A DNA stretch of 64,000 bases from Pseudanabaena sp. Chao 1811 (GTDB taxonomy: Bacteria; Cyanobacteriota; Cyanobacteriia; Pseudanabaenales; Pseudanabaenaceae). Under the pieces are notes generated by a model. The model was not told the origin of the DNA and made no database searches. It saw nothing but the letters and a program-made list of their open reading frames with translations. Of this stretch, positions 29,682-32,849 are shown one piece after another (the stretch's first letter is position 1; the number at the start of each line of letters is the position of its first letter). Made by a program: the position numbers and the translations under genes. The DNA is taken from positions 2,838,501 through 2,902,500 of the forward strand of contig NZ_CP101416.1 of NCBI RefSeq assembly GCF_027942295.1. Reading direction: 5' to 3'.

Positions 29682-30548
29682 TTAAATGCTCCAAGAAATT
29701 AATAGTGAACCTGCAATATAGGCAAATGCCTCAATTAATCCTGCTCCGAGATTAGGTACTTCCTGTCGCACGATTTCATCAGAAATTTTCACCCCCGGTA
29801 CAAGAATCAGATCCGCAAGCCAGCGAATGGCTACAAGCATCAATATTCCAAAGGGAATCGCCAAAATATATAAGATAAAACTAATTCCCCAATTCTCAAA
29901 CTCAGGCAAAAAGGCAAAATGTACCACGTTGCCGATCGCTACTAGCAAACCAGCAAAAGCAACTCCCGCCGCAGGATTGTTATGTTCTTGAATTGATTTA
30001 AATACGTCATATCCCGCGATCGCTGAATAGCAAAAGCTTGCAAGTACCAGTGTCGTTAAACCGATGACATAACTTACTAAACCCACTAGCCATGTTCCTG
30101 AATCTCCGCCCATTGTGGAACTAATGATAATGCCATTAGCAATATGACAACCTGACTCAAGAGCTGCTGCCCCAAAATTACGCTCTTCGAGGATTTCTCT
30201 AGCACTGTCACAGCGTTGCAAAATTAAGCGATCGCAAACAATTGCGCCAACCCACATCAAGGCAATTACTAATAGTCCATAGACAACTAGATTGACTAAG
30301 ATATTTTGCCAACCTAAAACTGACTTGGTAAGAGCGCTTTTAAGGGCGATCGCAATACCTAAATAGTAGCCAACTAGGGCTAGTGCTACTGCCGAGTTAT
30401 CACGGATAAATAGCTCAATATTGAGTTCGATCTTGCGCCGAAATAGCTTTTGATAGACAAACTGTCCAATCCAAAACAGAATAAAGCCAATGGCAATTTC
30501 GGCAACGATCAAAGGCGATCGCCCTATTTCCTGTAAGACTCGTTCCAT
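29682..30548 (-). CDS. DUF350 family membrane protein
   Basis: A 288-residue integral membrane protein with about eight hydrophobic helices and two DUF350-like halves. Each half has a long polar-plus-hydrophobic segment: FIRDNSAVALALVGYYLGI in the first and EVPNLGAGLIEAFAYIAGS in the second; CDxxxxREI-like residues link them. E. coli YjfL is the familiar single-domain relative. Function is unknown to me; DUF350 proteins often neighbour polyamine or stress genes, which is not so here. Its stop codon abuts the broken right end of a family A element. Confidence 0.85.
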   Translation of the reverse strand: MERVLQEIGRSPLIVAEIAIGFILFWIGQFVYQKLFRRKIELNIELFIRDNSAVALALVGYYLGIAIALKSALTKSVLGWQNILVNLVVYGLLVIALMWVGAIVCDRLILQRCDSAREILEERNFGAAALESGCHIANGIIISSTMGGDSGTWLVGLVSYVIGLTTLVLASFCYSAIAGYDVFKSIQEHNNPAAGVAFAGLLVAIGNVVHFAFLPEFENWGISFILYILAIPFGILMLVAIRWLADLILVPGVKISDEIVRQEVPNLGAGLIEAFAYIAGSLLISWSI

Positions 30549-30588: not shown

Positions 30589-30627
30589 AAAAATGAAGTG
30601 CTGTGCAAAGCACAGCACTTCATTTTT
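30589..30627 (-). terminator. Terminator of the double-linker gene
   Basis: A perfect 18-bp stem (AAAAATGAAGTGCTGTGC and its complement) with an AAA loop, one base downstream of the minus-strand linker gene, giving a T run on that strand. Confidence 0.88.
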
Positions 30628-30628
30628 G

Positions 30629-31939
30629 TTACTTAGCTAAATTACGCAGAAGCGATCGCTGCTTCTCGTTCATGCTTTGGAGGACTTGTCGAGCATCACT
30701 GTTTTGTAACATCTGCAAAAGTTCTTCGATCTCTTCATTTAGCGATCGCGAAACAGGTTCTTGTGTTTTAGTTGGTTCGGGGAAATGCTGCTTGGTATTT
30801 GCATCAGGCATCACACAGGTTCCTGTTTCACAGTTCATACCTAGCTCTTGCCAATAGAGACTAGGAACGGCTTTCCCCCTTTGTCCTGCATGTTCATGCT
30901 GCACCAAATCGCTTTGCAAATAGTTGCGAGGTGAGTCATGGAATTTGACATCACGAGCATAGGGAATAGTGTGACAGCCAAAGGCTTGACGATATTCTTC
31001 AGAATCAAAGATTTTATGGAAGAAGGCAGAAACACCTTGTTTGGTGAGTACATCTGTATAGATACTAATCTCTTCTTTATTATGGAGAGTTCTACCAAGG
31101 AGATGCTTAAAGCTAAACTCCATAAACTTCAAGTTAGAACTATCGCGATAGAAACTATCTAAATATAGATTTGACATCACCAGTTCGCCGAGGAAGTGGC
31201 GTACATCCAACTTGCCAGATAGAAAATCTTCTTCTAAATGAGCAATTTCGTGACGTTCAGAGGCATAGGGTTGCCGCTCTAGCAATTGAGTATAGATTTG
31301 TGCAAGTGCCTGTTGGCGATCGGCGGCGGAATGGACGGAATGACTCATTGCATCGGGATTGTGCTGCATTTCTTCAGGCATCACACAGGAACCCGTTTCA
31401 CAATCTAGCCCTAACTTTTGCCAATAGATCATCGGCACAATCTTGCCCCGTTGTCCAACATGTTCATGGGTCAAGAGATTTGTTTGTAGATAGTTGCGAG
31501 GAGAGTCATAGAACTTGACATCACGAGCATAGGGAATTGTGAAACTGCCAAAAGCTTTACGATATTCCTCCGATCCGAGAAGCTCATGGAAAAATGCCGC
31601 TACCCCCTCCATCATCAGTAAATTCATGTACTTCGCAATCTCTTCATTGTCCCTTAGCGCCCGTCCAAGGATATGCTTAAAGCTCCATTCGACAAACTTG
31701 AGATTTGAGCAATCATGATAAAAACTGTTGAGATAGACCGATGACAGGACGAGTTCGCCGATGAAATGACGTACCCCCAACTTCCCTTTAAGAAAATCCT
31801 TCTCAAACTTCGCAAGTGCCTTGCGTTCAGACTCATAGGGCTGGCGCTCTAGAACTTGTGTATAGATTTGCTGGAGAGCTGTTTGGCGCTCTGCCTCTGT
31901 GGAATTACGGTCAACGGTAACGACGGGATGAGTATCCAT
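30629..31939 (-). CDS. Protein with two phycobilisome linker (PBS_linker_poly) domains
   Basis: A 436-residue protein with two tandem repeats of about 180 residues, each a Pfam-type phycobilisome linker domain. Repeat 1 contains QIYTQVLERQPYESER, SFKHILGRALRDNEEI and SEEYRKAFGSFTIPYARDV; repeat 2 has QIYTQLLERQPYASER, SFKHLLGRTLHNKEEI and SEEYRQAFGCHTIPYARDV. Each ends with a CETGSCVMP or CETGTCVMP motif. There is no CpcD-type capping domain, no phycobilin domain and no membrane helix, unlike CpcC, CpcG or ApcE. A helical tail closes the protein. It probably joins two phycobiliprotein discs or trimers. The gene before it on the same strand is phycobiliprotein-like. Confidence 0.87.
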   Translation of the reverse strand: MDTHPVVTVDRNSTEAERQTALQQIYTQVLERQPYESERKALAKFEKDFLKGKLGVRHFIGELVLSSVYLNSFYHDCSNLKFVEWSFKHILGRALRDNEEIAKYMNLLMMEGVAAFFHELLGSEEYRKAFGSFTIPYARDVKFYDSPRNYLQTNLLTHEHVGQRGKIVPMIYWQKLGLDCETGSCVMPEEMQHNPDAMSHSVHSAADRQQALAQIYTQLLERQPYASERHEIAHLEEDFLSGKLDVRHFLGELVMSNLYLDSFYRDSSNLKFMEFSFKHLLGRTLHNKEEISIYTDVLTKQGVSAFFHKIFDSEEYRQAFGCHTIPYARDVKFHDSPRNYLQSDLVQHEHAGQRGKAVPSLYWQELGMNCETGTCVMPDANTKQHFPEPTKTQEPVSRSLNEEIEELLQMLQNSDARQVLQSMNEKQRSLLRNLAK

Positions 31940-32071
31940 AACAACTTCTCCAAAAAACCTCTAAAAAACCTTTGAAATGCTTGTCAATCTAGTCATTAAT
32001 TAACTGATTATTAATTAACTGAAGTCTCGGAGGTCGATCATGCGTGAGTATTGATAGCTAGCCTCAGCTAA

Positions 32072-32542
32072 CTAAGCATTCATTAATGCAGCAATAGCTA
32101 GATCTGAATAGGGCTTTACCAATACAGAACATTCAGGAGGTAACATCTCATCAACAACCGTTTGCATTAACCGATAGCAAGTAGAACATTCCTTCGAGAC
32201 TTGATAGGAGTTAATGATGTTTGCCAACCAATCCATCAAGGTTTCTCGAAAGAAAAGCTCGTCATCACGCAAGATGGATAAAGATGCATAGCGAATCATG
32301 TTAGACATGTCATATTTGCAACGGGCTAATTGCTTATGAACTAACTCAGGATACTGCTGTGCCAAGAGTTTGAGAGTTCGTATTGTGATCTCTTCAGCGC
32401 GATCGCGCAATAGACTATAGGTCTTGACACGCAAGGAAAAAGTATTGGCAAAACGCTCTAAATTAAATAGATCGCTATCAGTAAGATAAACATGCTCAAC
32501 ATCGCTAGTCTTTGCATCCAAGGTGCGATTCATTGTTAACAT
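32072..32542 (-). CDS. Divergent phycobiliprotein-like protein with a bilin-type cysteine
   Basis: A 156-residue all-helical globin-like protein, start chosen at the ATG at 32542 because GAGGGG lies ten bases before it; the longer frame would start at TTG. The core QLARCKYDMSNMIRYASLSI aligns with the chromophore region of allophycocyanin and phycocyanin (A-A-C-L-R-D-M-x-Y-Y-L-R-Y), placing Cys75 at the bilin-binding position and Asp78 at the bilin-contact Asp. The remainder is far from ApcA/ApcB. This may be an AplA-like or sensory member of the family. It lies 132 bases upstream of the double-linker gene on the same strand and they may form an operon. Confidence 0.78.
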   Translation of the reverse strand: MLTMNRTLDAKTSDVEHVYLTDSDLFNLERFANTFSLRVKTYSLLRDRAEEITIRTLKLLAQQYPELVHKQLARCKYDMSNMIRYASLSILRDDELFFRETLMDWLANIINSYQVSKECSTCYRLMQTVVDEMLPPECSVLVKPYSDLAIAALMNA

Positions 32543-32849
32543 AATCTTTGAACCCCTCAATTCAACTTCAGTAATGACTGTTTGATTTAATCTAACTATT
32601 CTGAAAATAACTGTTTCGTTAGCTCCCCCGCTATTTAAAAGAATAAAATTGTATTTGCTTACTTATTCAAGAATGAAATTAAAGTTAACTTAACAATATA
32701 TTTCGACATATATGGCTTTACTAAATAATTTCTAGATTTTTGAGTTTGTAGCAAAGTGATCCTTCTTGTTAATGAAAGATTTTATTGCGATTTGGATAGC
32801 GTCACGGTTAAAATAGTTGGTTAACAGAACGTAATAATTAGATACCTCC
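32543..32849. other. Divergent intergenic region, no gene seen
   Basis: An AT-rich gap of about 300 bases between the phycobiliprotein-like gene (minus) and the ABC ATPase gene (plus). It must contain promoters for both. No strong hairpin, tRNA or open frame could be found by eye. Confidence 0.5.

Follow-up and report, generated by a model that had tools for sequence, protein, structure and literature searches.

A phycobiliprotein-like globin from the BBAG side of its family is paired with an unnamed class of phycobilisome linker in filamentous cyanobacteria

What is a phycobiliprotein-like gene doing beside a phycobilisome linker gene, away from the operons of the phycobilisome? The question arose in the window, the whole stretch of 64,000 nucleotides of Pseudanabaena sp. 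Chao 1811 DNA that was analysed. The preliminary description had pointed there to a 156-residue bilin-type protein and a 436-residue two-domain linker on the same strand, and both were recovered as open reading frames with Pfam matches. The features of the locus, in window positions, are as follows.

32072..32542, minus strand: globin gene, first of the pair; 156 aa, ATG at 32542, stop at 32072; Phycobilisome family, BBAG (bilin biosynthesis-associated globin) side
30629..31939, minus strand: linker gene, second of the pair; 436 aa, two PBS_linker domains; 132 bp downstream of the globin gene
31523..31900, minus strand: PBS_linker domain 1 (PF00427) of the linker
30953..31330, minus strand: PBS_linker domain 2 (PF00427), a tandem duplicate restricted to some Pseudanabaena
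32318..32320, minus strand: Cys75 codon of the globin, the bilin-type cysteine in the CxYD motif
32186..32188, minus strand: Cys119 codon of the globin, a second conserved cysteine
31385..31402, minus strand: CxxGxC cysteine pair after linker domain 1
30815..30832, minus strand: CxxGxC cysteine pair after linker domain 2
32669..32710, minus strand: conserved upstream element TATGTCGAAAT...GTTAAGTTAACTTTAATTTC, candidate promoter/operator
30589..30627, minus strand: 18-bp inverted repeat plus T run directly 3′ of the linker stop codon, a candidate terminator for both genes

The globin matched PF00502 with 59.7 bits (cut-off 22.2) and the linker matched PF00427 with 234.3 bits, in two stretches. 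No NCBIfam model reached its cut-off for either protein, and the nearest curated models, apcB for the globin and CpcG for the linker, both stayed far under theirs. Whole-genome scans of the complete 4.73-Mb genome placed apcAB, apcD, apcF, apcE, two cpcBA copies, cpcC and cpcG, all named from sequence and tree, far from the window, and reported no further gene of the Phycobilisome or PBS_linker family within it; the pair is indeed outside any phycobilisome operon, as had been described. Adjoining the pair there is no bilin lyase gene and no gene for an alpha or beta partner of the globin, no V4R or 2Fe-2S genes lie near it in this genome, and its neighbourhood holds no conserved output domain, be it a kinase, a cyclase or another. 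Beyond the genus the pair has no conserved neighbour besides itself, the cpc-region cases given below excepted. The gene directly downstream (29682-30548, minus strand) encodes a DUF350 membrane protein and adjoins the pair only in close relatives.

Orthologues of both genes occur throughout the genus Pseudanabaena, and dN/dS was 0.05-0.15 for globin and linker alike (in pairs with measurable dS), indicating purifying selection on both. The gene pair is thus real, far beyond chance, and the two genes make up a small conserved operon; the earlier suggestion of a module made of one bilin-type subunit and one linker, away from the standard operons, held up. The upstream element is kept across Pseudanabaena while most of the remaining upstream region is not, it occurs once in the 4.73-Mb genome when up to 3 mismatches are allowed, and it stays with the globin in a relative (L102) where the divergent ABC gene is absent. 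It holds the palindrome GTTAA-G-TTAAC, in place of which another relative (L046) has GTTACGTAAC, still palindromic; the upstream sequence GTTAAGTTAAC is a putative protein-binding site. We considered the element as a short coding frame (MSKYIVKLTLIS...) and rejected this, as several copies contain stops and the changes are not concentrated at third positions. No RNA family matched in the region of the element.

To which side of the phycobiliprotein family does the globin belong? BBAGs, of the slr0149 type, are bilin-binding phycobiliprotein paralogues, related to phycobiliprotein ancestors and of unknown function (Rockwell et al. 2023, PMC10151467). In cyanobacteria their genes mostly cluster with V4R and 2Fe-2S genes. 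In a tree of 86 sequences, built without non-cyanobacterial BBAGs and without ApcD4 or ApcB3, a branch with 100/100 support splits the canonical phycobiliproteins and AplA from the focal globin clade together with the cyanobacterial BBAG-group globins, a group labelled by V4R/2Fe-2S neighbours that some of its members lack. The focal globins form a clade of their own (88/77; 96/84 with more members) and do not fall inside the clade of V4R-cluster globins. Forcing the focal globin to group with ApcB/ApcF costs 102 log units (AU p 1.2e-7); together with the 100/100 branch, this places the small protein outside ApcA/ApcB/ApcF, as the preliminary description had supposed. Independently of the tree, two residues mark the BBAG side of the globin: Trp105, present in 87/87 focal and 26/26 BBAG-group proteins and in none of the 26 canonical ones, and Tyr123 (87/87, 22/26 and 0/26, respectively). 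Judged from its sequence, then, the gene 1 product belongs to the globin lineage of the cyanobacterial BBAGs and not to that of the light-harvesting phycobiliproteins. It shares with the cyanobacterial BBAGs the same side of the tree (100/100), Trp105, Tyr123, the lack of a PGGNAY loop and, with those BBAGs that keep the cysteine, a CxxD-type site. Unlike them, it stands outside the V4R/2Fe-2S cluster in a separate clade and is paired with a phycobilisome linker, its bilin cysteine is never lost, and it has CxYD instead of CXRD. Three more BBAG-group globins are encoded in the same genome (L011, C1:532689; L012, 83900; L014, 3738642). The latter two are in V4R/2Fe-2S clusters and L011 is not, the V4R genes of this genome flanking these two globins and not the focal one; only one of the three retains the bilin cysteine.

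An AplA-like identity, with which the small protein had been compared, was not borne out: the grouping with AplA costs 32 log units and was rejected (AU p 0.010), and the N-terminal extension of about 27 aa is missing, as the focal globin starts where ApcA and ApcB start. The AplA label of the two genes used here (L106, L138) means an N-terminal extension plus similarity. In AplA itself the extension is reportedly about 28 aa. Like AplA (of Fremyella; aplA of marine Synechococcus, PMC2246261), the focal globin is related to phycobiliproteins, has a bilin-type cysteine and is encoded away from the standard operons; unlike it, L106 and L138 have the extension, CXRD and a canonical grouping. These AplA-type genes (193 aa; L106:1996-2577 and L138:2420-3001) are no more than about 5 kb away from the globin or the linker. 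We also considered a far-red allophycocyanin (ApcD4/ApcB3, IsiX) and rejected it, since the tree sets the globin off from the canonical side, though ApcD4 and ApcB3 are absent from that tree. AlphaFold predicted a confident phycobilisome globin fold (pLDDT 88.7). The globin resembles the allophycocyanins (ApcA/ApcB/ApcF and the far-red ApcB2/ApcD2) in this predicted fold, with a TM of about 0.8; unlike them it lies outside their clade, with about 16-25% identity in the structure matches, no loop and no gene for an alpha or beta partner.

The cysteine of the CKYD motif, Cys75, aligns with the bilin cysteine of ApcB2, ApcD2 and others, and in a wider alignment with that of the canonical subunits, as the preliminary description had expected. 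It is present in 87/87 focal globins versus 7/26 BBAG-group proteins, and Asp78 is likewise invariant in the focal globins. Their motif is CxYD and not CXRD, the arginine being replaced by Tyr or Phe in 86/87, and they lack the PGGNAY loop that lies close to the bilin. Most likely the globin carries one bilin on Cys75; with Tyr for the Arg of CXRD and no PGGNAY loop, the pocket may hold the bilin differently or poorly.

In the linker tree, the focal linker domains and their relatives form one clade with 100/100 support, outside ApcE, CpcC and CpcG/CpcL, which makes the product of gene 2, as far as trees can tell, a linker of an unnamed class. Its predicted domain fold matches solved linker domains. 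The domain is followed by a conserved tail, HEHxGQRGxxVPTxYWxxLGLxCxxGxC, with a helical end in most members, and the CxxGxC pair is present in 99/101 linkers. The CpcG rod-core linkers and CpcL likewise consist of a single N-terminal PF00427 domain and a short tail, and the focal linkers differ from them by their separate clade (100/100) and the CxxGxC tail; by eye, this tail ends in an amphipathic helical segment and not in a CpcL-type membrane helix. Repeated PF00427 domains recall CpcN and ApcE, the best PDB sequence matches of the two-domain linker, but the focal repeat consists of two similar domains duplicated recently in one genus, and unlike ApcE the linker has no phycobiliprotein domain. 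The second domains group in one clade (100/97), and a single domain is found in other Pseudanabaena and in every other genus examined. On this tree the two-domain linker is a recent tandem duplication within Pseudanabaena and the ancestral form has one domain. The double linker of the preliminary description is therefore correct for the copy in the window and is not the defining design, as nearly all other copies have one domain.

How widely is the pair inherited? Scanning one genome per species, we found at least 80 named linker loci in Leptolyngbyales, Oscillatoriales, Pseudanabaenales, Nodosilineales and smaller orders, with no Nostocales among the loci listed. The globin lies directly upstream on the same strand in 57 of the 80 linker loci listed. 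Among the 23 loci without this arrangement, we checked ten genomes; half of them encode the globin at a different place, and the remaining five, of Nodosilinea and similar genera, encode a sister-clade globin with CXRD. Conservation of the pair extends over Pseudanabaenales, Leptolyngbyales and Oscillatoriales. When 386 genomes sampled evenly from the phylum were compared, linker matches above 280 bits and globin matches above 200 bits came from one and the same set of 15 genomes, and the next scores, 154 and 145 bits respectively, leave wide gaps for both; these are raw counts that ignore shared ancestry, with cut-offs chosen after the gaps were visible. Within the family, the globin accompanies the linker in 25/25 linker-bearing genomes, and it occurs in six others that have no linker, suggesting that it can also have a function apart from the linker. 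The linker was lost in two genomes (G013 and G014), and the pair is absent from some genera. In Nodosilinea-type genomes (L269-L273), the linker occurs with a third globin clade (QCQRDM motif) in place of the focal globin.

A few genomes tie the linker to the antenna. In Stenomitos (L138), Scytolyngbya (L139) and Leptolyngbya FACHB-321 (L151) it stands among cpcBA, cpcE and cpcF, and the globin sits elsewhere in the genome. Rod linkers (cpcC) and cpcG are also near it in Scytolyngbya, and genes read as pcyA, pebA, pebB and a bilin lyase in Stenomitos; the cpc and peb names around these three loci come from sequence recognition. In another genome (G214, L112:3668-9095), a distant linker relative that joins the focal linker clade with 100/99 support divergently adjoins a cluster of 2Fe-2S, V4R, BBAG-like, BBAG and V4R genes, possibly an ancestral association of the linker with a BBAG cluster.

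What might the pair do? We give about an even chance to the reading that the globin is an accessory subunit of the phycobilisome, carries a bilin and is docked there by its dedicated linker. The PBS_linker domain of the gene 2 product would sit in a phycobiliprotein ring, and a special contact would come from the conserved tail (CxxGxC plus helical end) or from the partner globin. In this way globin and linker together would give the phycobilisome an accessory subunit with one bilin of the BBAG type. Quantum yields of 3-7% have been measured for BBAGs to date (PMC10151467), and because of this weak fluorescence the docked globin would likeliest alter or drain energy at its place rather than add to harvesting.

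The main rival, clearly the less probable of the two, gives the pair a part in assembly, repair or bilin handling. The globin might hold or pass on a bilin or aid assembly of photosystem II or the phycobilisome, as proposed for the slr0144-slr0152 cluster, and the linker, not itself a stoichiometric subunit, might guide the globin to nascent antenna parts. This fits with the closest relatives being cyanobacterial BBAGs, as a part in photosystem assembly is indicated for the BBAG cluster (PMC10151467), with the linker relative beside the 2Fe-2S, V4R and BBAG genes in G214, and with the pebA, pebB and bilin lyase neighbours in Stenomitos. Yet in most genomes the pair is away from V4R, 2Fe-2S and bilin genes, and the PBS_linker domain is structural in every solved case. 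We consider it rather unlikely that globin and linker make a free-standing light sensor or mini-antenna, independent of the phycobilisome, as the preliminary description had proposed. An operon of its own, a private conserved upstream element and the lack of an adjoining alpha or beta partner would suit such a module, but the occurrence of the linker within the cpc/pebAB regions of several genomes favors attachment to the phycobilisome, and an output domain such as a kinase or cyclase is not conserved beside the pair.

Two further explanations have very little probability left. A displaced ordinary phycobilisome subunit (an ApcB/ApcF or AplA paralogue) with an ordinary rod-core linker would agree with the top curated matches, the apcB and CpcG models, far under cut-off as these are; it is rejected under the models used, by the AU tests given above for both groupings and by the 100/100 linker clade apart from CpcG/CpcL, CpcC and ApcE. 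A decaying relic without present function, to which the absence of the pair from some genera and the linker losses in G013 and G014 might point, is hard to credit given the low dN/dS of both genes, the invariant Cys75 and Asp78 and the conserved upstream element.

We found no published description of the globin-linker pair in a literature search to which subscription journals were mostly external. The fold families are already known, and so is the principle that a biliprotein pairs with a linker; as far as the literature covered shows, the new elements are a BBAG-side globin as the partner, a separate linker class and their co-inheritance. A BBAG-side globin inherited together with a dedicated phycobilisome linker provides a concrete, testable tie between the BBAG lineage and the antenna. 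A linker class without a name, present in several orders of filamentous, non-heterocystous cyanobacteria, would escape surveys of cpc, apc and cpe operons, and the two-gene unit, overlooked in many filamentous cyanobacteria and with a globin from an ancient side lineage of the phycobiliproteins, suggests an accessory component of the antenna that has escaped study.

The second conserved cysteine of the globin may bear on how the two proteins meet. Cys119 is present in 83/87 focal globins, and the four without it have no adjoining linker. In one genome (G019) an unpaired second globin copy lacks Cys119, and the linker-paired copy keeps it. The losses amount to at most two or three independent events, and so they hint at a cysteine link between the proteins without proving it. 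One speculative version, which we regard as improbable, is that the globin quenches or regulates the phycobilisome through its bilin under redox control; Cys119 of the globin would contact the CxxGxC of the linker and make docking redox-dependent. A different arrangement was seen in G033 (L083:7058-8362), where two tandem focal globin genes are followed by one linker gene, suggesting that a two-subunit version may exist.
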